Below, in pieces: positions 9,616 to 63,772 of a DNA stretch of 64,000 bases. The stretch covers positions 1 through 64,000 of the forward strand of contig JAFWFS010000018.1 in the NCBI GenBank assembly GCA_017515475.1, written 5' to 3'. The notes under the pieces were generated by a model that saw only the letters and a program-made list of their open reading frames with translations, was not told the DNA's origin and did not search any database. This DNA is from Erysipelotrichaceae bacterium. Lineage in GTDB: Bacteria > Bacillota_I > Bacilli_A > Erysipelotrichales > Erysipelotrichaceae. Numbering within the stretch: position 1 is the stretch's first letter; each line of letters opens with the position of its first letter. A program made the position numbers and the translations under genes.

Positions 9616-10617
9616 ATGGAATATGTATATGCACAGATTAAAGGCGAAGCCGAGCCTTGTTTTCTCAATATTGAGACAATCAGACAAGGAAAAGTTCTTG
9701 AGAAAGACATCATTAAGATGTGGTGTACCAATTGTGGGGCACCAGCTCATGTATATCACCACGAAAGTGGCCTTGTTTCGTTTAGATCGATTCCACACAG
9801 AGACGGGTGTCCTACCCAATCAAAAGAATGGGAACAGGACGAGAGATTGCTGGTAAAACAAAAAAGGATCTACACCGATACAGTCTTAAACAGGGAGCTG
9901 ATTCTTTATGGAAATGACCGAGCCCCTGTTGTTAATCCAGATATCGATTACAGTGATGATGAAGAAAAAGGAGAAGACGGCAACAGCGTAGAAGGCAACA
10001 CAGAAGAAAATCCTGGTGCTATTGTTCCTGGTGATAACAATCTAATAATGTATGATCCCGACCAACTTGAGAAAAGGGAACTTGCCATTTGGTATAGATT
10101 TAAAACCAAAATACTATCTTGCATAAAATCGCTCTTTAGGGAAATCATGTCAGTTGGCTATTCCTTCAACATGGGTGATGGCAAGACAGCTGCAGATTAC
10201 GTTCTGGATAACATTGCGCTGCATGAAGTCCGGAGAACCGGCATTGGTAAAAAAGAAGTGATTGCTATTGCAAAGAGGTGTGCTCCAGAGGATATGGCTT
10301 ACCTTCGAAAGATCGGCTTGCTGTCACCAGGCAAACACAATCTGGATTACATCATTCTCAAGGACGCATATTCAACAAATATTGAAAACGCCATCTTCTT
10401 CAAAGTCAAATGCAAGAACCAGGCTCAAAATGAGCATTTCAAAAATCTCATAATGGGTTCCAAAAAGAATTCCATAAACAAGGACAACAGGAAATTCATC
10501 GTCATATATTCTTTCTTTGAACAGGAACCGAACGATTACAATCAGGTTTATGTGGCAGAGATCACATTCAGACAATACGGCTTGTTCAGCAATGTCGACA
10601 TAGGTGGCAAAAGGTGA
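9616..10617 (+). CDS. Cys-rich protein, first gene of the recombinase operon
   Basis: The 333-aa product has a probable zinc site near the N-terminus (Cys37, Cys40, then histidines 46-49 and 61, Cys65). A very acidic linker follows (about 112-135) and then a mixed C-terminal domain (about 150-333) with many basic residues. I do not recognise a family. AGAGGG lies before the ATG. Its stop overlaps the GTG start of the next gene (GTGA), and the three genes form one tight operon, so it probably acts with the two recombinase-like proteins as a DNA-binding or accessory subunit. That role is inference. Confidence 0.75.
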   Translation: MEYVYAQIKGEAEPCFLNIETIRQGKVLEKDIIKMWCTNCGAPAHVYHHESGLVSFRSIPHRDGCPTQSKEWEQDERLLVKQKRIYTDTVLNRELILYGNDRAPVVNPDIDYSDDEEKGEDGNSVEGNTEENPGAIVPGDNNLIMYDPDQLEKRELAIWYRFKTKILSCIKSLFREIMSVGYSFNMGDGKTAADYVLDNIALHEVRRTGIGKKEVIAIAKRCAPEDMAYLRKIGLLSPGKHNLDYIILKDAYSTNIENAIFFKVKCKNQAQNEHFKNLIMGSKKNSINKDNRKFIVIYSFFEQEPNDYNQVYVAEITFRQYGLFSNVDIGGKR

Positions 10618-13292
10618 TCGATTGCCTTGAACACTATCTGAATACTGTTTCAGACAACGACATCGATATCCCTGCCTTTGTTATGGAAAAATGCCCTGAG
10701 CTCGTTGCCGATCCAGAGGGCTTATCGGGGTTTCTATATTCAGATAGGCCGCAAAGACAGATTGGTGATTTTATTCTGGCCTGCAATAAAGCGATTGGTT
10801 GGCTGGAAAATAACCGGTCACATTCAAAAGGCCACAAGCCCAATTACTATGATGCCTATATCAGGTTTGCTGATCCTTCCTTTGCTGTTTCAAAAAAGGA
10901 TTTTCATCTATATTTCAAATACATCAACAACCTGGAGCTGAATAGATCTTTGTTAAAGATACATCAAAAAACAATTGATATCATCGGGCTGTTGAGAAAG
11001 GAAAACATTGGTGACGATCTTATCAAAGAAGCATACCTTAAGCTTTGCAGCAACAGCAATGTTGTCCCGGCAGATCTGTGGCACGAGATCGATCCGTTCT
11101 GCTTTCAAAGCGATGATAAGTACATCGAGATCACAAGGAAATTCAACAGCAGTCTCAGCACCTCTTTCAACAGCATCATTGACTTTTTCGCATGTCTTTA
11201 TTTCAGAGAAGATTGTAACGATGTGCTGCTGGAAAACCAGTTCCTTTTTCCAAGAATAAGATCTTTTTTCTCTGTTCTTGATGCTCGAGGTCCGGTGCTG
11301 TTCATTGATCCGGATTATTATTTCATTAAGAAAATTGCCGGAAGCCGCTATTGTTTTGGCGACAACAAAACCGTGTTTTTCATCAAAGATACCGAAATCG
11401 CTGACGTATTGAACCGGTCGCTTCCCCTCAGTTCAAAGTTCATATTCAAATCCATATCAGATTTTGGCGAAACGATTGATGACCCAGCTATGGCGCCTTC
11501 TCTAACCGTTTTCTTTTTCAACCATTACAGCAATTTGAACACCACATCGCTCATTGAATCTTTATATGATCATATATCAAACAGACACGGGCTGGTTGCT
11601 TTGGTACCGGATGCTTTTTTGTTTTCTGATGGTTTTGATTTTAAGAATGTGCTGTCTAAAGTTCAGATAAACAAATTGGAGTTGCTGCCTTCTGGTATCG
11701 AATCTTCATCTTCGCCAAAAAGAAAAACCGTCATCTTCGCAACCTACGGATATGTAGATTCAAGTCCCAACGCGGAGGTCATACAACACAAGCTGTACAA
11801 AAACGATTCAAGAACCATTGCCCGGAAGCCTTTTAAGATGCTAATCGAAAGATCGGACATATTCAATAGTGATGTCAGCTTGCGAGAATGGATTTTTACC
11901 GAGAACAGAAAGCAGCTGACAAAATCTGACCACAAAGAGGCGGCTGCAAAGATATATGATTATTCCAGCGAAATCAAAGTATCGTACACGCAGTCGGGCC
12001 GGGGAACCAAGGATAATCCAATCCGGATCCAGGCATATGTTCTTTTTCCTGATAATGGATCGGGAATCAGAAAACGGATTTCCTCAACAAAAGGTTCCGC
12101 CAAACTTCCTTCTCAGGGGAAGATATTTGACTGGTTAAAGAAATACCTGTTTTCAAAAAGAAAGAATCGTGGTGCGACCGTCTCTATTCAGGAAGAAGTC
12201 TCTTTAGTGTTTGTTCCTGCATATGAAGGAAAACCCGTTACCCTTAAGACCTTTCTCTATATTCATCCCGAGATTCTCCTCGCTTTGCCTGAATACTCTA
12301 GTGACTTGTTTCGCTCGGTGGGTGAATCTTTTCTTTCCGATATGTTTATGAATCATGTCACTGATGATCTTTTGCTGACGTTTATCAGTAATGGTCTTGA
12401 TGAAAGCAGATTCACTATCAGACAGTTTCTTTCTGTCTTCTCTGCCGTTTTTACCTTGGCCATAGACCACAGGAACTGTCTCTACAACCCAGCCGCAGAG
12501 CTCTTTAAAAACAGCTCATATGAAAACTTGGGACTGTCGTCGGTAAAGGATTCACTTACCAAAAAATTCTTTTACTTGTACGAAATCAAAAAGATCATCA
12601 GTCATGCCAACAGATTGATCAGCTCGGGAAAGGATGTTGGTTTGGGAATTTCGATTCTTCTGAGGCTGTATCTGGGAATCGAGGCAAATATCGTGGCCGG
12701 ACTGCTCTGGAAAGATGTGGTGTTCGATCCTGACGGAATATCCTACATAACAACAAACCGGCAGGTGGACAATGGAGGAAAGACGTTTCTGCCTTTCTCT
12801 TCAATCAAATACCGCAGACTTCTTCCTTTAAGGCCGTTTATCAGAGATGTGCTTCTGAAAGAAAAAGAACGCCAGCTGGATCTGTTTGCAAAAGGAAACG
12901 AAACTTACCTTGAGGGATGCACCGTTATTCACGGAGAGGACTTTGTAATAAACGGACAGGCTTCCGTTTATTCGCCGGCAAAGTTGAACGCCAAAATCAG
13001 AAAACTGATCAAAAAGATTGGTATGAATCCGGATGTTCTTTATGTTCCCGACGACAGGTTCGGTTCTGTCGAAACCAACATTGCCTACTACACCGGCGAT
13101 ATATTTAAAGCAAACTACAGACATTATCTCCTAAAGGAGAACAGGGATATCGATCCCGGTTATCTGTACTATCTTCTTGGCAACACAATTCAGATGGACA
13201 CTTTATCAAATCACTACTTCGATTATACGGATTCCCCGTCTTTGGAAATCTGCTATGACCTACAGCCAACTTATGAGGGAGAGGGAAAATGA
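10614..13292 (+). CDS. large protein: methylase-like part plus degenerate tyrosine-recombinase fold
   Basis: This 892-aa product is unusual. Around residues 325-385 it has GLVALVPDAFLFSDGFDFK, then LELLPSG and KTVIFATYG, a pattern like the region after the catalytic motif of N6-adenine methylases of the HsdM type. I find no NPPF/DPPY motif, so a working methylase is doubtful. The C-terminal 300 residues resemble a tyrosine recombinase: LRLYLGIEANIVAGLLWKDV (about 680-702) matches the first Arg box, but Glu stands where the Arg is expected. FKANYRHYLL (about 831-840) and LSNHYFDY (about 864-871) match the later boxes only partly. It starts with GTG in a 4-bp overlap and ends in an ATGA overlap, so it is coupled to both neighbours. 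Confidence 0.7.
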   Translation: MIDCLEHYLNTVSDNDIDIPAFVMEKCPELVADPEGLSGFLYSDRPQRQIGDFILACNKAIGWLENNRSHSKGHKPNYYDAYIRFADPSFAVSKKDFHLYFKYINNLELNRSLLKIHQKTIDIIGLLRKENIGDDLIKEAYLKLCSNSNVVPADLWHEIDPFCFQSDDKYIEITRKFNSSLSTSFNSIIDFFACLYFREDCNDVLLENQFLFPRIRSFFSVLDARGPVLFIDPDYYFIKKIAGSRYCFGDNKTVFFIKDTEIADVLNRSLPLSSKFIFKSISDFGETIDDPAMAPSLTVFFFNHYSNLNTTSLIESLYDHISNRHGLVALVPDAFLFSDGFDFKNVLSKVQINKLELLPSGIESSSSPKRKTVIFATYGYVDSSPNAEVIQHKLYKNDSRTIARKPFKMLIERSDIFNSDVSLREWIFTENRKQLTKSDHKEAAAKIYDYSSEIKVSYTQSGRGTKDNPIRIQAYVLFPDNGSGIRKRISSTKGSAKLPSQGKIFDWLKKYLFSKRKNRGATVSIQEEVSLVFVPAYEGKPVTLKTFLYIHPEILLALPEYSSDLFRSVGESFLSDMFMNHVTDDLLLTFISNGLDESRFTIRQFLSVFSAVFTLAIDHRNCLYNPAAELFKNSSYENLGLSSVKDSLTKKFFYLYEIKKIISHANRLISSGKDVGLGISILLRLYLGIEANIVAGLLWKDVVFDPDGISYITTNRQVDNGGKTFLPFSSIKYRRLLPLRPFIRDVLLKEKERQLDLFAKGNETYLEGCTVIHGEDFVINGQASVYSPAKLNAKIRKLIKKIGMNPDVLYVPDDRFGSVETNIAYYTGDIFKANYRHYLLKENRDIDPGYLYYLLGNTIQMDTLSNHYFDYTDSPSLEICYDLQPTYEGEGK

Positions 13293-50102: not shown

Positions 50103-51644
50103 CTACTGTTTGACTTTGTATTCCAGGCACAGCATGGTCACGTCGTCGAACTGTTCCGCGTTTCTGACAAAACCGTTAATGCCTTCGTTGACGTTTCTCA
50201 GAATCGTTTCCGGATCGGCTCCCGGATCTTTATTCAAAGCTTCCAGCATTCTGTCGGTACCAAACAGAGCGTTGTTGTTGTCTGTCGCTTCCGGAACGCC
50301 GTCGGTATAGACAAAGAGCTTGTCCCCCGGTTCCAGCTGAACCGTGTAGCCTGTATACTCCGTATCGTCCATTACGCCGATAACCAGACCGTGCCTGTCT
50401 TTCAGCAGTTCAAAGTTTCCTCCCGCTTTCATGATGGCAGGGTATTCATGTCCGGCGTTGGAAGCGGTCAGCTTTCCGGTAGAGATTTCCAGAATGCCCA
50501 GCCATACCGTAACGAACATGTCGTAAGGGTTGTGGGAACAGATCTTTCTGTTGGAGACAGTCAGGATCTCTTCAGGAGAAACGCCCGTACCCGCAACGCC
50601 CTGAATAACAATGCTGGAAGCCATCATGAACAAGGCGGCAGGAACGCTTTTCCCCGAGACATCGGCGATAACGATACACAGATGATCGTCGTCGATCAGA
50701 AAGAAATCGTAGAAGTCGCCGCCGACTTCTTTTGCCGGATCCATGGACGCAAAGAGATTGAATTCCTTGCGGTCAGGGAACGGAGGAAAAACGTGCGGCA
50801 GCATGGCCATCTGGATCTTTGTGGCCGTATACAGCTCAGTCTTTGTAGAAGCCAGATTGATGCTTCGTTCAGAGAAAAGAACGCTGTAGATCAGAACGAT
50901 CGCAACCAGAACGGAACCGTATTGGGTAGCGTAGCCGTGTGCGCCCTTTGTGAACAGATAATGAACGATCGGTATGAGAATGAAAGAAATCGAAACGATC
51001 TTCTGTCTTCTGGAAACGTCGCTTTTCAGCACCAGAAAAGTCGTAGGAGGGGCAACGCAGATCAGGTAAAGATCGACCAGCCAGTAGAGCTTTTCTTTCT
51101 GGAAGATGCCGTCTGCATCGACGCTGAAACAGATCGGAACAAACATGTTGACGAGTATCAGAAGTACCGCCGGTATCAGCAGGATCGCCGTGAGGCGATC
51201 GAAAACGGCAGTGGCCTTTCCTTTGAATCCCAGAACCGTACGCACATAGCGGTAGAAACAGTAAACAAGCGCAAAGTCGATGATCTTGGTCACCCCGTTC
51301 ATGAACAGACACCAGGTGCGGTACTGAACCATGCCCAGAACATAGCATTCCCATTCATTGACAAAAAAGGAGTAGCAGGTCAGCACGATCAGCATGATAA
51401 AATAGCTGTTCGAGTCGTCGATTTCGCCTTTGCGTCCGCCGGTGCATCCGAAGAACAGCATCGCACAGATAAAAGAACCCATGACATCTATTCCGGCGTT
51501 GTACATAACGTTCGGCGTGATGCCGGGCTTACTAAACAGTTTGATTCCGAAAACAAAGCAGGAAAAAGCCGTTACTGTCAGTATCAGCAGTCCTATAGCA
51601 AGAAACCATCTTTTACCGCTTGGTTTTTTTATATTTAATTCCAT
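50103..51644 (-). CDS. membrane PP2C-type (SpoIIE/RsbU-like) phosphatase
   Basis: The 513-aa product has about eight membrane helices (about 12-265) and a cytoplasmic PP2C SpoIIE-type phosphatase domain (about 290-510): QMAMLPHVFPP, MDPAKEVGGDFYDFF, IADVSGKSVPAALFM, TASNAGHEYP, VYTDGVPEATD and QFDDVTMLCL. Metal-binding Asp residues are all present. Such enzymes usually act on anti-anti-sigma factors. No sigma regulator is near, so the partner is unknown. The membrane part suggests signal input from outside. Confidence 0.88.
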   Translation of the reverse strand: MELNIKKPSGKRWFLAIGLLILTVTAFSCFVFGIKLFSKPGITPNVMYNAGIDVMGSFICAMLFFGCTGGRKGEIDDSNSYFIMLIVLTCYSFFVNEWECYVLGMVQYRTWCLFMNGVTKIIDFALVYCFYRYVRTVLGFKGKATAVFDRLTAILLIPAVLLILVNMFVPICFSVDADGIFQKEKLYWLVDLYLICVAPPTTFLVLKSDVSRRQKIVSISFILIPIVHYLFTKGAHGYATQYGSVLVAIVLIYSVLFSERSINLASTKTELYTATKIQMAMLPHVFPPFPDRKEFNLFASMDPAKEVGGDFYDFFLIDDDHLCIVIADVSGKSVPAALFMMASSIVIQGVAGTGVSPEEILTVSNRKICSHNPYDMFVTVWLGILEISTGKLTASNAGHEYPAIMKAGGNFELLKDRHGLVIGVMDDTEYTGYTVQLEPGDKLFVYTDGVPEATDNNNALFGTDRMLEALNKDPGADPETILRNVNEGINGFVRNAEQFDDVTMLCLEYKVKQ

Positions 51645-54962: not shown

Positions 54963-54977
54963 TACACGGCTGTTTTT
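54951..54977. terminator. terminator between convergent genes
   Basis: AAACAGCC (54951-54958) pairs with GGCTGTTTTT (54968-54977) around a 9-base loop. It overlaps the ends of the transglycosylase gene and rarA. Confidence 0.8.
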
Positions 54978-56298
54978 ATTTATCCTGGTGTTCTTTCTTC
55001 CAGCCCTTGATCTGTTTCAGTCTCTCGGCTATCCTGGTTTCTACTCCATGATTGCCAGGGGAATAATACTCCCGGTCTTTCAAGGAATCTGGAAGACACT
55101 GCATGTTTGTAAGTTTTTCTTCCGTGTCGTGGGCATACTGGTAACCCTTGCCATATTCGAGATCTTTCATCAGTTTTGTTGGAGCGTTTCTGATCACCAG
55201 CGGAACCGGTTCATTCAGCATACCGATCGCATCTGCCTTGGCTTTTTCATAGGCCATGTAGGTTGCGTTGGATTTTGGAGCCATGGACATGTATATGACG
55301 GCTTCTGCGAGATTGACGGTACATTCCGGCATCCCGATATAATGGCAGGCATCATAGGCGGCAACCGCAAGTCTTAAGGCCTGCGGATCAGCTAGACCGA
55401 TATCTTCCGAAGCAAAACGGATGACTCTTCTAGCGACATACAGAGGATCTTCTCCAGCTTCCAGCATTCTTGCGAGCCAGTATACGGCCGCATCCGGATC
55501 GGAGTTGCGCATGGATTTATGCAGGGCGGAAATGATGTTGTAGTGTTCTTCGCCCTTCTTGTCATAGAGGAAAGACTTCTTGGAAGCGATGTCTTCGATG
55601 ATCCGCTTTCCTACGGTAATGCCTTCTTTGTCGACATCGCCGTTGAGTACTGCCATCTCCAAAGTAGACAGGGCCATTCTGGCATCGCCGTTACAGAAAC
55701 CGGCTATGAAATAAAGGTCCTCGTCAGCGATCGTGATCTTCTGTCCCTGAAAAGCTCTCGGATCTTCGATGGCTCTTTTTAAAAGAGAAACGATCTGCTG
55801 TTCGTTCAGCTGTTTCAGGACGAAAACCTTGCATCTTGACAGAAGAGCTCCGTTGACTTCAAAAGAAGGGTTCTCGGTCGTGGCTCCGATCAGAACGATG
55901 CTGCCCTTTTCTACAAACGGAAGAAAGGCATCCTGCTGGGCCTTGTTGAAACGGTGGATCTCGTCTACGAAGACGATCGTCCTGTTGCCGTAGGCTGTGG
56001 CGTCTTCTGCCCTCTTCATGACTTCCTTGATTTCCTTTATCCCGCTGGTAACGGCAGAGAAGTTGATAAAAGAAGCCTTGGTACAGTTGGCGATCACGTA
56101 AGCCAGGGTTGTTTTTCCAACGCCCGGAGGACCCCAAAAAATCATCGATGGAACGCGGTCGTTCTCGATCATCTTGCGCAGAACCTTTCCTTCACCGATC
56201 AGGTGTTCCTGACCGATGATGTCGTCCAGCGTTTCCGGTCTAAGACGGGCAGCCAGAGGCTCGTTCATTTCGTTTCTTAACAGAGACTGTTGAAGCAT
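54976..56298 (-). CDS. rarA: replication-associated AAA+ ATPase RarA (MgsA)
   Basis: The 440-aa ATPase acts at stalled forks. It has Walker [10 protein letters not shown] (about 55-63), Walker [17 protein letters not shown] (about 108-123), SRCKVFVL, and the C-terminal tetramerisation domain with [25 protein letters not shown] precedes the ATG. It lies seven bases downstream of the TIR-cluster paralogue gene, so the whole run from 62239 could be one transcript. Confidence 0.94.
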
Positions 56299-56305
56299 CG
56301 TTCTC

Positions 56306-57499
56306 CTATTTCTTCAGTTCCTTCCAGTTCAGCTTGTTCAGGATGTCCTGGTCAGGTGCGTTCCCCGATACTCCGTATACGTCACCATACTGGTTCTGGT
56401 ATACGTGATCTGCGGATACGCTCACATCCACGTTCTGTCCGTAACTGTTCTGGTATACATCAACGCCTCTAATGGCTTCCGATCTGGCCTGGGAGATCCT
56501 GGAATCGGATGCCATCTTTTTGTTCCAGGAATCCATGATCATGTCCGACATGGCGGCCGAGTTCTGAGCCAGAGTCTGGGTCAGTTTCTGCTGATTGTAC
56601 ATCAGGCTCTGCATGTTGGCCTGGGCGATACCCTGGAAACGCAGCGTTTCCTGCAGGCGCATCTGTATCCTTTGGGCATTGAGTTCAAAGAAACGCTGAC
56701 GAAGATTCTGATCCATGTGGAAGGTTTCCACAAACTCATAGAATGCGGCAAAGGCCTCCTGTTCGTATTCCTTCGGGCTGACCATCAGGAACTTGTTCTT
56801 GGCGCCCCAGTCGATGCCGTCGCACGGCGTGCCGTGGCCGAACTGTTTTGAACTGTTTTCAGCCTGCTTGTTCTTGACGGCCGCACCAAGAAGACCTGCC
56901 AGCGGATTAATTGCGCTCAGTATGGAGGCGGGAGCGTAGTATTCGATACCGTTGTAGTCCATGCCTGCGACAACGGTGCACTGGGCTCCGCTTGCGGCAG
57001 TTCCGGCATATCTTCTCATGAAAGAACGTACCAGACTGTTGTTGGCTCTGGTTTCCGTGCCCAAAGACGCATCTCTCTGGAAGGCGGCCTCATACTCGGC
57101 CATGAAATTCTGATACGCCTGCTGCGGATTTGCACCGCAGAGACTTGGAAGATCGGCCTCTCCGACAACCGTCAGCTTCATCTGCGAAAGAGCCTCTGCG
57201 AACTGCTGCATGTAGTCTTCCGGTTCGATGAAATCGCGGATGGAATTCCATTTGACGTCAGCCATGGATTTCAGCGTCATGGTCATTATCTTGTTTTTGT
57301 AGGTCGTAAACTTCTCGTCGCTCAAGCCGAAGATCATGATCTTCTTGTCGCTGTTGATGGCGTGTGCCGTGACGAAGAAAGGAACGGATTCGTGCTGGAA
57401 TCCGTCGACCAGCGATCCGCCGATCATGTAGTCGTTAGGTATTGCGGCATGTGCCAGAACATTGCCGTTGTGGTCTTTGAATTGTTTGATCTCGCTCAT
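56306..57499 (-). CDS. unknown protein, paralogue A of the TIR cluster
   Basis: The 397-aa product is a paralogue of the 454-aa protein at 60875-62239 over its whole length. Shared features: NGxxxAxAxxP near the start, a Glu/Ser-VPF stretch, IEPExY (about 91-96), LPSLxGxNP (about 119-127), V-AGMDY, a Gln/Met-rich helical region (about 275-315), and a C-terminal tail of about 70 residues identical in both. The tail (about 325-397) carries VYQN twice and Gly/Tyr/Val repeats. No signal peptide or long membrane segment; a short Ala/Gly/Leu stretch lies near 195-205. Family unknown. AAGGAGA precedes the ATG, after the lipoprotein gene. Confidence 0.78.
   Translation of the reverse strand: MSEIKQFKDHNGNVLAHAAIPNDYMIGGSLVDGFQHESVPFFVTAHAINSDKKIMIFGLSDEKFTTYKNKIMTMTLKSMADVKWNSIRDFIEPEDYMQQFAEALSQMKLTVVGEADLPSLCGANPQQAYQNFMAEYEAAFQRDASLGTETRANNSLVRSFMRRYAGTAASGAQCTVVAGMDYNGIEYYAPASILSAINPLAGLLGAAVKNKQAENSSKQFGHGTPCDGIDWGAKNKFLMVSPKEYEQEAFAAFYEFVETFHMDQNLRQRFFELNAQRIQMRLQETLRFQGIAQANMQSLMYNQQKLTQTLAQNSAAMSDMIMDSWNKKMASDSRISQARSEAIRGVDVYQNSYGQNVDVSVSADHVYQNQYGDVYGVSGNAPDQDILNKLNWKELKK
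56311..56536 (-). repeat. tail-coding repeat, copy A
   Basis: These 226 bases match 60883-61108 with about 21 mismatches in my hand alignment. Almost all are silent. The 65 bases 56472-56536 are identical. Confidence 0.85.
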
Positions 57500-57510
57500 T
57501 CTGTTCTCCT

Positions 57511-57801
57511 TTAAGCCAGTCCGTTGGACTTGATAACGACCTTGATGCTGACGTCGTGGTCAGGCATTTCAAATTCATAGTATCCTTCTCTGATCGGTTC
57601 CAGATTTACGCCGTCTACGATCAGATACAGATCGGCATCGGAAACGATGACCGTCTCAACCGTAACGGTCTCTCCGGTCTTTGCGCGTTTCGGACAGCTT
57701 ACCAGATCCTCGTCTCCGGTCTCAACGATGATCTTGTGACCGCCAAAGCAGCCGGAGATCAAAAGCGACAGGATCGCGATTGCAGCAAGTTTTTTCTTCA
57801 T
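57511..57801 (-). CDS. small lipoprotein in the TIR cluster
   Basis: The 96-aa product has a lipoprotein signal with lipobox LISGC (Cys18). The remainder is a small beta-rich domain: a VSCPKRAKTGETVTVET-like opening and a Val/Asp-rich end that resembles short Ig-like or repeat modules (EFEMPDHDVSIKVV). Such MPDHDVxI endings occur in exported Bacillota repeat domains. AAGGAG precedes the ATG. It lies between the TIR gene and paralogue A, eleven bases from each. Confidence 0.78.
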   Translation of the reverse strand: MKKKLAAIAILSLLISGCFGGHKIIVETGDEDLVSCPKRAKTGETVTVETVIVSDADLYLIVDGVNLEPIREGYYEFEMPDHDVSIKVVIKSNGLA

Positions 57802-57812
57802 AGGTTACTCCT

Positions 57813-60800
57813 TTATTTGTAGTGTTCCAGCTCCTTCCGACCCATGTCGATCAGAGAGGAAGCATCATAAGGTTTAAAGCATCCAAGGTAATAATCATCG
57901 CCTTTTCGGCTTGGATCGTAGGCATAGACGAATATGCCGTCTTCTTTTTCATTATATTCCAGAACGGAATCTCCAATATAGTACAGAGGCATGGAACTGT
58001 CGGAATCAAGATGTACGATCTCCATACAATCGTCGTTGTATAGATACAGGCGGTCCTGTGTGAACGTAAAACGGAACGGGATCACAGAAGTATAGGCGGT
58101 GTTGTCAAAGGACAGCTTCACGCTGCGGACAAGCGCATCGTTCTCGTAGATCCTCAGTACATGGTCGTCGCAGACGCAGTAGAGACGATTGCCGCAGGAA
58201 GCGATTGCAACGGCATCGAAGCTTTCGAAACCGATCTGATAAAGCAGATTTCCTTTGAGGTCGCAGACATTCAGACAGCCCTGTCCGATATAAACGACAG
58301 AATCGTCGATACATGCATACATCTTCCTGGAAGCGGGTTCCATCAGCGAAGTCGTCTCCCCGGTTTCAAGGTCAAACAGAGCGGCATATGTTCCGTTATC
58401 CCGATCGTAGAAGCTCAGCAGCGTTTTCCCGTCATCCGAAACCAGAATCGTTGAAGCTTCACCGTTCACAAGCAGATCCGCTCCTTCGGTTTTCAGATTT
58501 ATCTTTGATATCTCTAAGGTCTGCAGATCAAACACGACGATCGTTTCGCTGTTGAATGCATCATGCAGATAAAGTCGATGATTCACAAGACAGATCGAAG
58601 AAAGGCCTTCGTAACCTGACGCAAGATACATGGATTCAGCCATGTTCAAAGGATAAGACAAGAAACCGCTTTGGATATAGAGATCCTCAGTCGGAAGGCA
58701 CTTTTCATCTATCATCTCACCGTTTTCAGTAGAGAAGGTCAAAACAGACAGACCGGCGGTCTTTGCGTCGATCTTCAGCACATAGATGCGATGATCCAGA
58801 ATTTCCAGAGGAAGATAGGCATGACCCGGCTCCAGCTCAATCCGTTTTGCCTGTTCGTTGCCGGAGAACGGATACAGAAGCAGTTCATCTTCTGTTTTCA
58901 TCAGGATATATTCATCGCCGGAAACGAAACTTTCCGGCGCATAATAGAAACCTTCGGCAGAAAGTGTCTGCAGATGTCTGTCGTAGGAACTCTCGTAGAT
59001 ACGCAGATTCTCGTCCTTTAACAGAACATAGGAAGTGCTTGACAGCAGCACGGATCCTGTCGCCTTTATGGATTCGCTGTTCTCCGGGAAGCAGCGGGAG
59101 AAAGAAGCGTGTCCGTCGCTCAGCCAGACCATTCCTCTATATCCTCCGTTTAACGCAAGATAAAGAAAATCGTCATTGTGATACAGCACCTCGCAGACAC
59201 CGTCTTGCAAAGAGTAGTCATAAAGCAGACTTCCCTGATTGTCATAAGTCCTTATCCTGTTGCCGAACACCAGAGTAAAAACGCCCTCTCCATCCAGCAC
59301 GAATCCTTTTTCAGAAATGCTGTCCTGGGAGAATTCTATCCGGACTAGCAGGTTCCACGGATCGTAAACCGACAGAACATAATGCCCCTCGTATCTGCTG
59401 AAAGAATCGGTATCGTTTGAAGAAACGGAAGCGTTGTTGTCGGCCAGAACATAAAGTCTTCCGTCTTCCAGGAAACCATAGGATATGATTTCAAACTGAG
59501 GTTCGGATACCTGTTTAAATTCGGAAGTTTCAAAATCGAAAACGCCGACACTGTATTCCGTGTTGATGTCTCTTAGCTTAACCGCAACATACTTGTCGTC
59601 CATCGACCAGCAGAAGTCTCTCATGTAGGCATCCGTTTCATCCGGCATAGGCATGCTCAGGAACGGAACCCCTTCGTCATCGGTGACCTGTACCGCAAAG
59701 GAATCCGTAGTAGCGACATAGTCCCCGGAATGGCTCATGTGGCTGACGCCGATCTGCTGATACTTCATGCCGATATCCCAGAGGATTTCTCCTGACAGAT
59801 AATCCACACAGTACAATGTGCCGTCCACGTACGCAATCAGTTGCCCCGGCTTCCCTTCTTCAAAGGAATAGATGTTCTTTCCAAGAGAGAAGGAAGCTTT
59901 TTCCTCGTGAGAAGGCATGTGGATGGCATGAAAAAGAGAATCGGAATCCTTGTAGATAATATGTTTTCCGTCCTTGCTGATGATGAAGTCCTGAATGTCT
60001 GCCGATACGTCAATCATCCAGGATTCTGTATACTGATATGGCGTCCGGTAGGCGTTCACAGCCTTGCTTAGGGCGTAGACTGCATCATCGGTCTGCGGCC
60101 TGTCCCCCTCCAGAGCTTGTAAGGCGCTGTTCAGGGCACTGTAACGGTCCGCTTCATCAAGCTGATTTAGAGCCTTTCTGGAAAGAAGACGGGATTCGTT
60201 GATCAAAGACTGGCGGTAGTTGCGAGTGATGACCGCGTTGGAATAAAGCAGATAAGAAATGATGATTGCTGCCGCGGCAAATGCCGAGGAAAGAATGGCA
60301 GTCAGTCTCTTTCTGCGGTATTTCTCCTGACGCATGACCAGTTCGTCGTAGCTGCAGCCGATCATCGCCGAGGCAAGTCTTGGGAGTTCTATCCTGTCTG
60401 CGTCCTTGAAGTTTCCCCGATAGTCGCAAGCCAGAGGTTCGCTGTCAACAGTAACGGTCTTTTTCTTTCCGGATTTGCCCGTTACGGTCTTCTTGTAATG
60501 GCACAGAGTCTCGGGGAATATCTCCGGAGGCTCTCCCTGAGAAAGCACGCACAGAACATGATCGCGGTCGTGGTTCTTTAAGAAGTTTTCTATTTCCAGC
60601 AGACACCACTTCGATTCGTTGTAGTAAGGGGAACATATGACGATCAGATAATCCGAATTATCCAGTGCTTGATTGATCCTGGCGGCAAGATCAGGAGTGA
60701 TTTCCAGTTCTTCCTGGTCGCGGAACAAAGGATCGAACCTGCTGTAGCCGCACTCTTGCGCGATCTGTGAAGGGATCTTAAAACGTTCCAGTTTCTGCTG

Positions 60801-60878
60801 GATGTGTTTCGCTACCTCAATATCCCTAGGATTATGACGGTAGGAGATAAATGCGCTGTAATGTCTGTCCTGATTCAT
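57813..60878 (-). CDS. TIR domain - membrane helix - beta-propeller protein
   Basis: The 1021-aa product begins with a TIR domain (about 5-115): SAFISYRHNPRD, FRDQEELE and VICSPYYNESKWCLLEIENF, with Glu95 in the WCLLE motif matching the NADase glutamate of active TIR proteins. A basic stretch and one membrane helix (about 193-213) follow, then some 800 residues of repeated blade-like beta segments (WMIDVSADIQDFIISKDGKH, YVALKL-type strands) forming one or two propellers, probably outside the cell. The ATG overlaps the upstream paralogue (ATGA). This suggests a sensor with an intracellular NAD-cleaving or signalling head; activity is inferred. Confidence 0.82.
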   Translation of the reverse strand: MNQDRHYSAFISYRHNPRDIEVAKHIQQKLERFKIPSQIAQECGYSRFDPLFRDQEELEITPDLAARINQALDNSDYLIVICSPYYNESKWCLLEIENFLKNHDRDHVLCVLSQGEPPEIFPETLCHYKKTVTGKSGKKKTVTVDSEPLACDYRGNFKDADRIELPRLASAMIGCSYDELVMRQEKYRRKRLTAILSSAFAAAAIIISYLLYSNAVITRNYRQSLINESRLLSRKALNQLDEADRYSALNSALQALEGDRPQTDDAVYALSKAVNAYRTPYQYTESWMIDVSADIQDFIISKDGKHIIYKDSDSLFHAIHMPSHEEKASFSLGKNIYSFEEGKPGQLIAYVDGTLYCVDYLSGEILWDIGMKYQQIGVSHMSHSGDYVATTDSFAVQVTDDEGVPFLSMPMPDETDAYMRDFCWSMDDKYVAVKLRDINTEYSVGVFDFETSEFKQVSEPQFEIISYGFLEDGRLYVLADNNASVSSNDTDSFSRYEGHYVLSVYDPWNLLVRIEFSQDSISEKGFVLDGEGVFTLVFGNRIRTYDNQGSLLYDYSLQDGVCEVLYHNDDFLYLALNGGYRGMVWLSDGHASFSRCFPENSESIKATGSVLLSSTSYVLLKDENLRIYESSYDRHLQTLSAEGFYYAPESFVSGDEYILMKTEDELLLYPFSGNEQAKRIELEPGHAYLPLEILDHRIYVLKIDAKTAGLSVLTFSTENGEMIDEKCLPTEDLYIQSGFLSYPLNMAESMYLASGYEGLSSICLVNHRLYLHDAFNSETIVVFDLQTLEISKINLKTEGADLLVNGEASTILVSDDGKTLLSFYDRDNGTYAALFDLETGETTSLMEPASRKMYACIDDSVVYIGQGCLNVCDLKGNLLYQIGFESFDAVAIASCGNRLYCVCDDHVLRIYENDALVRSVKLSFDNTAYTSVIPFRFTFTQDRLYLYNDDCMEIVHLDSDSSMPLYYIGDSVLEYNEKEDGIFVYAYDPSRKGDDYYLGCFKPYDASSLIDMGRKELEHYK

Positions 60879-62239
60879 TTTTTCTTCAGTTCTGTCCAGT
60901 TCAGCTTGTTCAGGATGTCCTGATCAGGCGCATTGCCCGATACCCCGTATACATCCCCATACTGGTTCTGGTATACATGATCCGCAGATACGGATACATC
61001 CACGTTCTGTCCATAGCTGTTCTGATATACGTCGACGCCTCTTATGGCTTCCGATCTGGCCTGGGAGATCCTGGAATCGGATGCCATCTTTTTGTTCCAG
61101 GAATCCATCAGCCCGTCAGATGCGTGTCTGGCGTTATCCGCAATCATCTGAGAAGTTTTTCTCTGCATCTGCTGCAGCTGCATCTGTTTCTGCATCGCCA
61201 GGTTCTGATTCTGCGCGGCGATCTGTCTGGACTGTGTGATCTTCTGATTGACGGCGTTTCCTTCCGCCTGTAAGAGAGAAGGATCGGTCTCGATGCTTCT
61301 GACAAAATTCAGGAACAAGGGAGTAGCTTCCGCTTCGTTTTCTTTCAGACAGACGCAGTAGTAGCGAAGGTAGGAACCGAAGGTTACCTGATCGGCTTTT
61401 CTATGACCGAAACCGGCAGGTTCTTCTTTCAAAGGCTCTTCCTTGACCTGTGAAACCGGTTCAGGAGTCGGCTCCTTCTTCTTGCGCATCGCCTTGCCGA
61501 TAAGACCCCCGTGCATCAGATCATCCATGGAGAGCTTTTCTTTTCCTTTGATCACATCGGAAAAAGCGTTGCCGATCCGGGAGAGATCAGCCCCTGTTGT
61601 TTTGTTGATCAAAGAACCGAGCTTTTCTTTCGTGGCAATCAGACACTTGTTGTCGAAACTCAGGCCGCCATACAGTCCGCCATAGGAGATCTCGGCGCCC
61701 AGATAATCCATACCCGCCAGCACGACGGCATCTTTTCCGTTTGCCAGCTTGCCTTCCATGCGGTACAGGACAGATTCACACAGATGATCTTTGATCTCGC
61801 AAGGCAGTTCCATCAGAACCGAGAATCTTTCTACTTCGTTCTGAAGCAAAGACAATGCGGAATCAGGATTCGTGCCCATCAGACTTGGAAGCTCTGTCTT
61901 GGCTACTGCCTCCAGCGGATAGCCGAACATTTCTTCGGCCTGTTGCTTCAGGTAAGCTTCGGGTTCAATGTATGATTGATAGCTGTTTTTCACCATCATC
62001 GGAACGAACGCCAGCAGGCCCTTGACCACCATGTTTCTGATGTCATGATAGATCTGTTTTGAATCGGCGATCAGGATGATTCCGTCTCTTCCGGATGCCT
62101 TGATGTGTGCGGTAAACGGTACCGTTTCCGACTGCCAGTTCTGATCCAGAACAGCCTGTATTTCAAAGTCGTCAGGAACGACGGCCGTAGCGATCGCTGT
62201 ACCGTTGGATGTCTGGAATATTTTCCTGCCTGTATCCAT
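60875..62239 (-). CDS. unknown protein, paralogue B of the TIR cluster
   Basis: The 454-aa product is the longer paralogue of 56306-57499 and the first gene of the cluster. It has the same landmarks (VPF near 42, IEPEAY near 93-98, LPSLMGTNP, VLAGMDY near 173), an extra Pro/Glu/Lys linker (about 258-285), a Gln/Met-rich coiled region (about 345-375) and the identical tail (about 383-453). No signal peptide. AAGGAGG precedes the ATG. Its stop overlaps the TIR gene start. Function unknown; the shared tail suggests both paralogues bind the same partner. Confidence 0.78.
   Translation of the reverse strand: MDTGRKIFQTSNGTAIATAVVPDDFEIQAVLDQNWQSETVPFTAHIKASGRDGIILIADSKQIYHDIRNMVVKGLLAFVPMMVKNSYQSYIEPEAYLKQQAEEMFGYPLEAVAKTELPSLMGTNPDSALSLLQNEVERFSVLMELPCEIKDHLCESVLYRMEGKLANGKDAVVLAGMDYLGAEISYGGLYGGLSFDNKCLIATKEKLGSLINKTTGADLSRIGNAFSDVIKGKEKLSMDDLMHGGLIGKAMRKKKEPTPEPVSQVKEEPLKEEPAGFGHRKADQVTFGSYLRYYCVCLKENEAEATPLFLNFVRSIETDPSLLQAEGNAVNQKITQSRQIAAQNQNLAMQKQMQLQQMQRKTSQMIADNARHASDGLMDSWNKKMASDSRISQARSEAIRGVDVYQNSYGQNVDVSVSADHVYQNQYGDVYGVSGNAPDQDILNKLNWTELKKK
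60883..61108 (-). repeat. tail-coding repeat, copy B
   Basis: Second copy of the 226-bp unit at 56311-56536, same strand, 4.57 kb apart. The flanks on the N-terminal side diverge at once. Confidence 0.85.
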
Positions 62240-62341: not shown

Positions 62342-62366
62342 AAAAGCCCTGTATGCAGGGCTTTTT
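62342..62366 (-). terminator. terminator of the ADP-ribosylglycohydrolase-like gene
   Basis: AAAAGCCCTG (62342-62351) pairs with CAGGGCTTTTT (62356-62366) around a 4-base loop. On the minus strand the T run ends the gene at 62384, so the TIR cluster needs its own promoter in 62240-62341. Confidence 0.85.
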
Positions 62367-62383
62367 CTGATGATGAAAACTTC

Positions 62384-63772
62384 TTATTTCAGTTTTCTGG
62401 CAACGTCCGCCGTACGGCGTGCCAGTTCTCTGATGGAGATCTTCTTCAGACCTCTGACGTAGGTATCGAGCTCGTCGCCGATCGGTTTCTTCCAGTATTC
62501 CGGAATGCTGTCCGGACCGTTGATGATTCCCAGAACCGTCATGATCTGTGCGGCGTTGCAGTCGACGTCCTGTCCGCAGCCTCCGCAGGCAGCCAGCGTT
62601 CTGTTGAAATCGCCGTTGCCGTACCAGAGCGCAATGATCTGCGCGCAGGCGTTCGGATAGACGTGGATCCAGTTGTATCTCTGGTATTTTTCTTCGCAAG
62701 GCATCCAGGCACTGTAGTAGTCGTCGTGGGTCTGACACTGTTCATAGGCAAAGCGGATGACGCTGCCGTATTCGCTGTCCGCAGGAATCAGATCGATGCA
62801 GTTTCTGATGATCTTGCGGATGTCTTTTTCGACAAAGGCATAGGATGCCATCATCGCATTGAAAACTTCACCGAGAATACCGTTGCGGGCGTGGGAGATG
62901 GAAGCATCCATGAAGGCCGCTTCTGCCGCCTTTTCGATGTTTCCCGGATAAAGCTGTCCCAGGACGACGCCTCTCATCTGAGCACCGATCCATTCATTGA
63001 ACGGATTGTGGAAACGTCCCGACTCCGGCGGCACGATACCGACCTTGAGATTCTTTAAGGCAAAGTCTTCTGCCGACCAGCCCATCGGGATCCGGACGAT
63101 CCATTCATCGGAAATGTCTTTGGCCGTCGTGTTCTTTCCGTGTTTCTCGTACGCCAGCAGCAAGGCCAGTTCATAGGTGATGTCGTCGTTGTAGGTGTTC
63201 GGCTTTCTGATATAGCGATCCACCTCTCCGTATTTCTTTTTGATGTTGGCACCGGTATAGCCTTCGATGCAGGTTCCGTATGCGCCGCCGATGATCTGCG
63301 CCAGCCAGCCGGCATAGGTCTTTTCCAGATACTCCTCGTCGATCTCGAATTTATGATCTTGCGGATAGTCTACAGCCTGTTTCAGTTCGGCAAAGCTTTC
63401 GTAGAATTTCTGTTTCCAGTAAGGATGAGCTTCGTCCTTCTCGGCGTTGTATACCGCTTCAAAGACGGCGTAGGCAAGTTCATGAAGCCGGACAATGTCG
63501 CCCCGTTCATAAGCTTCATAGCCTTCCTTGATCAGCTGTGTCCCGCCTTCGACCTTGTATCCCCTGTTCTCGATCGCCTGTATGGAAGCAAGACAGATCG
63601 ATTCAGGTGCTCTGGATCCCGGTACCTGAGAGTGCCAGTACATCTTGATCATTTCGTCCTGAGAGGTTTCAATTCCCGAGGAAGATTCCTCCCAGATCGT
63701 TTCGTTGTCGTCTTCTTCGTAGCACGGAACGACCTGCAGAATGTTGTTCCTTTCGATTTCCCAAGCTTTCAT
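62384..63772 (-). CDS. ADP-ribosylglycohydrolase-family protein
   Basis: The 462-aa product has an ADP-ribosylglycohydrolase core in its C-terminal two thirds: YAGWLAQIIGGAYG (about 152-165), NTYNDDITYELALLL (about 191-205, metal-binding Asp pair), and CGQDVDCNAAQIMTVLGIINGP (about 402-423, second metal site). These enzymes remove ADP-ribose from proteins or small molecules. The first 150 residues are an extra helical domain. AAGGAG precedes the ATG. It lies upstream of the TIR cluster in the same direction but with its own terminator. Confidence 0.88.
   Translation of the reverse strand: MKAWEIERNNILQVVPCYEEDDNETIWEESSSGIETSQDEMIKMYWHSQVPGSRAPESICLASIQAIENRGYKVEGGTQLIKEGYEAYERGDIVRLHELAYAVFEAVYNAEKDEAHPYWKQKFYESFAELKQAVDYPQDHKFEIDEEYLEKTYAGWLAQIIGGAYGTCIEGYTGANIKKKYGEVDRYIRKPNTYNDDITYELALLLAYEKHGKNTTAKDISDEWIVRIPMGWSAEDFALKNLKVGIVPPESGRFHNPFNEWIGAQMRGVVLGQLYPGNIEKAAEAAFMDASISHARNGILGEVFNAMMASYAFVEKDIRKIIRNCIDLIPADSEYGSVIRFAYEQCQTHDDYYSAWMPCEEKYQRYNWIHVYPNACAQIIALWYGNGDFNRTLAACGGCGQDVDCNAAQIMTVLGIINGPDSIPEYWKKPIGDELDTYVRGLKKISIRELARRTADVARKLK

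Follow-up and report, generated by a model that had tools for sequence, protein, structure and literature searches.

The closest described relatives of the locus reported here are bacterial TIR-domain signalling systems and phage proteins that intercept their signals. In Thoeris, a TIR protein (ThsB) acts together with a separate effector, which in type II is a transmembrane-macro protein. Phage RyR-domain proteins degrade or sequester 2′/3′ cyclic ADP-ribose (2′/3′cADPR), and in phage RyDEP an H, a W and a second H of the RyR domain contact 3′cADPR (PMC13232231). We have analyzed 64,000 nucleotides from an Erysipelotrichaceae gut bacterium (contig JAFWFS010000018.1, positions 1 to 64,000; hereafter the window), in which a minus-strand cluster encodes a TIR protein with one transmembrane helix and a predicted beta-propeller, a small lipoprotein (LIP), and two paralogous proteins, A and B. 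This TIR protein resembles Thoeris in its putative catalytic Glu, and its relatives have a separate membrane partner in the operon. It differs from Thoeris in being membrane-anchored with a propeller and in that SIR2, SLOG and macro genes are absent from its cluster; moreover, the relatives use a RyR-domain partner, whereas the window has PsbP-like paralogues. Our tentative reading, to which we give slightly less than an even chance, is that an ancestral TIR-RyR signalling pair existed and that the clade of the window replaced the RyR protein by the paralogues as regulators or receivers.

Architecture of the cluster and its TIR protein

The genes follow one another in the order B, TIR protein, LIP, A and rarA, with successive gaps of −4, 11, 11 and 7 nucleotides, and the open reading frames (ORFs) are placed as the first-pass annotation had described. 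B (454 amino acids, 60875-62239) and the TIR gene (1021 amino acids, 57813-60878) overlap in an ATGA (60875-60878) that contains the stop codon of the former and the start codon of the latter. LIP (96 amino acids, 57511-57801) carries the lipobox LISGC, and A (397 amino acids, 56306-57499) is the last gene before rarA. Clear Shine-Dalgarno sequences precede B, LIP, A and rarA; none is clear for the TIR start which, because it overlaps the stop of B, is probably translated by coupling to B.

The TIR domain (about residues 7-120; 60519-60860) passes the Pfam cut-off with two profiles, TIR_2 (E=1.6e-11) and TIR (E=7e-07), and aligns with plant TIR domains. Its NADase-type glutamate, Glu95 (codon 60594-60596, in a WxxxE context), which the first-pass annotation had already recognized, lies in SKWCLLEI, which aligns with SKWCLMEL of the flax L6 TIR, and it is invariant across 16 relatives. 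A Kyte-Doolittle scan of seven TIR-propellers predicts a single hydrophobic helix, in the window protein at residues 192-210 (60249-60305). Because EKYRRKR stands just before this helix, the TIR domain is likely to be cytoplasmic and the remainder, including the C-terminus, to lie outside the cell. The likely extracytoplasmic part includes the predicted propeller (about residues 290-1000; 57879-60011). Several beta-propeller profiles match this region, all weakly; the AlphaFold model, from a 3-row alignment, is unusable (pLDDT 38), so that the propeller of 800 residues proposed earlier is a prediction from profiles alone. These features point to a membrane-anchored, putatively NAD-cleaving signalling enzyme.

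Relatives of the TIR protein adjoin a RyR-domain membrane protein

TIR-propellers outside the clade of the window adjoin a gene of about 630 codons. In its product, three hydrophobic helices lie close to the N-terminus and the RyR domain is C-terminal; the part between them matches TrkA-N weakly in a single member. This RyR protein is the recurrent neighbour in the wider TIR family. The similarity covers the entire lengths of the TIR proteins, with 36-43% identity between the window protein and its RyR-linked counterparts in five genomes (G181, G170, G302, G298 and G154). A profile of ten RyR partners finds the RyR1 chimera 6uhi (E=9e-06) and, with weaker scores, bacterial RyR domains in the PDB; the Pfam RyR profile matches 4 of the 10 members, also weakly. 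Within the ten-member profile E543, H544, R546, W547, G555 and H584 are invariant, and the HxxW and downstream H among them correspond to the residues that hold 3′cADPR in phage RyDEP. The phage proteins serve in evasion, however, whereas the RyR proteins of the relatives are bacterial, membrane-anchored and TIR-linked, and the window has none.

As read from the loci, the RyR gene adjoins a TIR gene in 26 of the 32 genomes of the order that have a strong match to it. The neighbour is a same-strand TIR-propeller, a divergent TIR protein of about 680 amino acids (“TIR2”) or a STAND-like TIR. Of the other six genomes, one (G149) has a TIR on another contig, and in five (G287, G166, G285, G294 and G264) the contigs are short or no TIR lies within reach. 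No RyR gene stands beside the TIR gene of the window, and none was found in its assembly, which is 90.5% complete; of the searches behind this result, the one with Pfam, the control of which was silent, counts little. The literature covered, which leaves out most subscription papers and thus does not settle priority, describes no bacterial TIR-RyR membrane pair.

Other arrangements of the RyR genes were also observed. Divergent pairs of the RyR membrane protein and TIR2 (L112, 7524-11525; L186, 6553-10560; and L111) are found in many genomes of the genus and are a candidate system of their own. A three-gene run in G023 (L058, 489-9112) encodes a TIR-repeat protein, the RyR membrane protein and a TIR-propeller. 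At three further loci (L067, 5472-13904; L196; and L197) the gene for the RyR membrane protein is close or adjacent to one for a large TIR-like protein (FIAYHG), the middle of which is NTPase-like, so that the same partner occurs with another architecture. The one further TIR in the genome of the window is repeat-fused and lies on another contig (L190, 8992-11316, G000:C29); it adjoins a glyceraldehyde-3-phosphate dehydrogenase-like gene and looks related to the G023 neighbour.

A possible single change of partner on the TIR tree

A tree built from 15 TIR-propellers unites the four that are paralogue-linked in one group, with support of 100/100, and places the RyR-linked ones opposite; a single change of context is enough to explain this distribution. 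The tree was midpoint-rooted for drawing only, and the long branches of G023 and G166 are of unsure place. Since the RyR linkage is widely spread, it is likely to be the older state of the TIR-propellers.

Under our preferred reading, the propeller outside the cell, or the membrane, would sense a disturbance, upon which the TIR domains would cluster and convert NAD+ to an ADP-ribose-type product. The RyR domain of the ancestral partner may bind this product and activate the three-helix membrane protein. In the clade of the window, the RyR partner would have left the operon and its place would have been taken by the cytosolic PsbP-like A, B and C3 (a third paralogue type) and the lipoprotein, acting probably as regulators of the TIR protein or as its new receivers. 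One signalling device may thus have changed its output. If this is true, the clade is a natural partner-replacement experiment, in which one enzyme is combined with different downstream genes. A bolder version, which we regard as unlikely, is that these are Toll-like bacterial transmembrane receptors signalling by cyclic ADP-ribose isomers to RyR-domain channels, a parallel to or forerunner of the animal link between cADPR and the ryanodine receptor, and that the clade of the window swapped the channel for PsbP-like receivers. Should the TIR-RyR pair work as proposed, it would provide a natural role for bacterial RyR domains and offer a simple setting in which to test the disputed cADPR-ryanodine link.

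Linkage of the TIR gene and the paralogues in other genomes

The linkage was examined in 196 genomes drawn from the family and, by a full search, in the 36 genomes of the genus. In none of the former, the window excepted, did the TIR gene and a paralogue lie less than about 8 kb apart. The conclusion that the genes are not linked elsewhere was overturned by the genus-wide search. A-type genes are present in 18 of the 36 genomes and the TIR gene in 11, each of which also has A-type genes (P = 5e-05, hypergeometric test, uncorrected for kinship). In four species, the TIR gene adjoins paralogues of the A, B or C3 type, in three gene orders and with different flanks.

The whole cluster is found in the public sister genome RGIG622 (G299, L032), in the order B-C3-TIR-LIP-A-rarA. 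The stop codon of C3 and the start codon of the TIR gene overlap there in the same manner as those of B and the TIR gene in the window. The B-TIR junction of the window and the C3 end of RGIG622 also agree in sequence (GARyTRAAGAAA, then AAATGA), so that the window locus probably lost C3 when one gene end recombined with the other. In G305 (L171) the order is a 106-amino-acid protein, A, C3 and TIR, the first two junctions overlapping by 4 nucleotides. In G312 (L172), A is followed by two more ORFs in one frame, a lipoprotein of a second type and the TIR gene. The association of paralogues and TIR thus recurs at three loci outside the window, each in another species; the exact four-gene set that the first-pass annotation had proposed as a system is not conserved, the association is confined to a single TIR clade, and elsewhere in the family the genes are unlinked. 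The two additional ORFs of G312 (9999-11300, between A and the lipoprotein) encode a two-helix membrane protein and a protein of about 216 amino acids and are possibly further members of an A operon; a look-alike of the two-helix protein also follows A in G181 (L081).

The paralogues occur apart from the TIR gene as well. The LIP gene precedes A in G308 and G149, where no TIR gene accompanies it; in G308 (L173) rarA follows, giving LIP-A-rarA. A zinc-ribbon-bearing relative of B stands directly upstream of rarA in G181 (L090), again with no TIR gene. The possibility that rarA links the genes was rejected, as both A-rarA and B-rarA are found in the absence of TIR. These TIR-free arrangements could also be explained if the RyR partner of the TIR-propeller is still encoded at another site and receives its signal in trans, with A, B and LIP as passengers that have an unrelated job. 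This is the strongest rival, which we consider less probable than a replacement and rather unlikely by itself. It would agree with the mostly unlinked state of the paralogues across the family and with the RyR-TIR2 pairs that RGIG622, G305 and G312 carry elsewhere in their genomes; however, the paralogues adjoin the TIR gene in G305 and G312 too, in other neighbourhoods that lack rarA, and the assembly of the window yielded no RyR gene.

Several observations weigh against the replacement of RyR by the paralogues. Single-sequence RyR matches fall below the Pfam cut-off. The assembly of the window, given its completeness, could lack a RyR gene that the genome carries at another place, and the RyR genes that RGIG622, G305 and G312 retain beside another TIR might serve in trans. 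Only one genus and a single clade of TIR proteins show the paralogue linkage, such that it might be a vertically inherited accident, and in many genomes A-type genes sit away from any TIR. Finally, the evidence consists of genes and sequences alone.

Paralogues A, B and C3

A and B are indeed paralogous, sharing 39% identity overall, 33% in the bodies and 98.7% in the last 76 amino acids. The DNA of the two tails (56309-56536 in A and 60881-61108 in B) is 91% identical, with 19 synonymous nucleotide differences and 1 amino-acid difference. Between the window genome (G000) and G181, A is 72% alike in the body and 89.5% in the tail. Within the window genome the tails of A and B are therefore more alike than orthologous A tails, whereas the bodies show the reverse. 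These comparisons show the pattern expected when gene conversion acts together with strong selection on the tail, the tails of A and B evolving in concert.

A and B match no Pfam family, and none of the types A, B and C3 (the last seen in L032) matches a Mog1/PsbP-type sequence profile in the Pfam search; B shows no signal peptide or transmembrane segment. Some members of the family bear an N-terminal zinc ribbon. Foldseek returned no significant match with the low-confidence model of A (pLDDT 53.5); a PsbP-like pattern appeared only on re-ranking by VIA-align. In that ranking PsbP, LpqN, MTC28 and SciW, which we take to be members of the Mog1/PsbP-like superfamily, dominate, and nearly all of the top 24 rows have that fold. 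For residues 1-265 the best Z scores are 9.8 (PsbP) and 9.1 (LpqN), with 6.5 for SciW. Judging from this model, the fold of A and B is probably Mog1/PsbP-like, an assignment that is not settled. The likeness is confined to the predicted fold of residues 1-265; A and B differ from the superfamily in the absent sequence match and in the added long helix and conserved 76-amino-acid C-terminal tail, and some relatives differ also in the zinc ribbon.

SciW shields a transmembrane segment of an effector. Its presence among the PsbP-like folds would suit a stand-alone suicide device, in which the activated TIR depletes NAD+ and B (translation-coupled) or A is the inhibitor, in the style of a toxin and its guard. 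The catalytic Glu is present, and B or C3 lies directly upstream of the TIR gene with overlapping codons, as this explanation would have it. The SciW match (Z 6.5), however, comes from a model with a pLDDT of 53.5, and the RyR-linked relatives keep the same TIR-propeller with neither A nor B adjacent; we therefore hold such a device to be improbable.

Comparison with known systems and mobile elements

No system model in PADLOC, NCBIfam or PHROG fits the cluster, the only matches being generic and weak ones to TIR; this bears out the first-pass annotation, which knew of no described anti-phage system of this layout. A search of the cluster genes with Pfam, PADLOC and NCBIfam found no SIR2-SLOG, macro or other Thoeris effector, the rest of the genome not being searched. 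No relative of the TIR protein was found in the phage collection searched, and no TIR-family relative in the viral contigs searched. The plasmid search returned only partial relatives, mostly of the TIR domain. One of these, WP_167562754.1 of the Butyrivibrio plasmid pNP243, shares 33% identity over the first 320 residues, including the TIR domain and the membrane helix; it differs in its length (about 815 amino acids), its neighbours and its unaligned remainder.

A defence-island context, which the first-pass annotation had proposed as a check, was not seen among the neighbouring genes that were read. These neighbours (rarA, transporters and metabolic genes), together with the lack of a system match and of a phage copy, might indicate that the cluster is a sensor of envelope stress or nutrients with a housekeeping role rather than a putative immune one. 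We give this only a slim chance, as it is conflict systems that more typically show such a patchy presence (11 of the 36 genus genomes) and such changes of partner and neighbourhood.

Neighbouring genes

Downstream, rarA (54976-56298, minus strand; MgsA_C E=1.9e-69) starts 7 nucleotides after A; it is a housekeeping gene that is probably co-transcribed with the cluster but stands outside the device. Upstream lies a minus-strand gene for an ADP-ribosylglycohydrolase family protein of 462 amino acids (62384-63772; PF03747 E=2.1e-44). Between it and B is a minus-strand hairpin, AAAAGCCCTG-CATA-CAGGGCTTTT (62342-62365), which is not among the elements listed by the terminator scan. This gene is probably a separate unit. 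Its candidacy as a partner of the cluster was rejected as unsupported, since the hairpin lies between them and the gene was not seen beside other annotated TIR loci. Base composition lends no support to horizontal acquisition: the GC content at third codon positions (GC3) is 0.56 in the TIR gene, against a window mean of 0.54 with a standard deviation of 0.10. Further upstream of the ADP-ribosylglycohydrolase gene is a set of ABC-transporter and nucleoside-hydrolase-like genes (L200). Elsewhere in the window, positions 50103-51644 encode a SpoIIE-type phosphatase, the N-terminal part of which is membrane-like.

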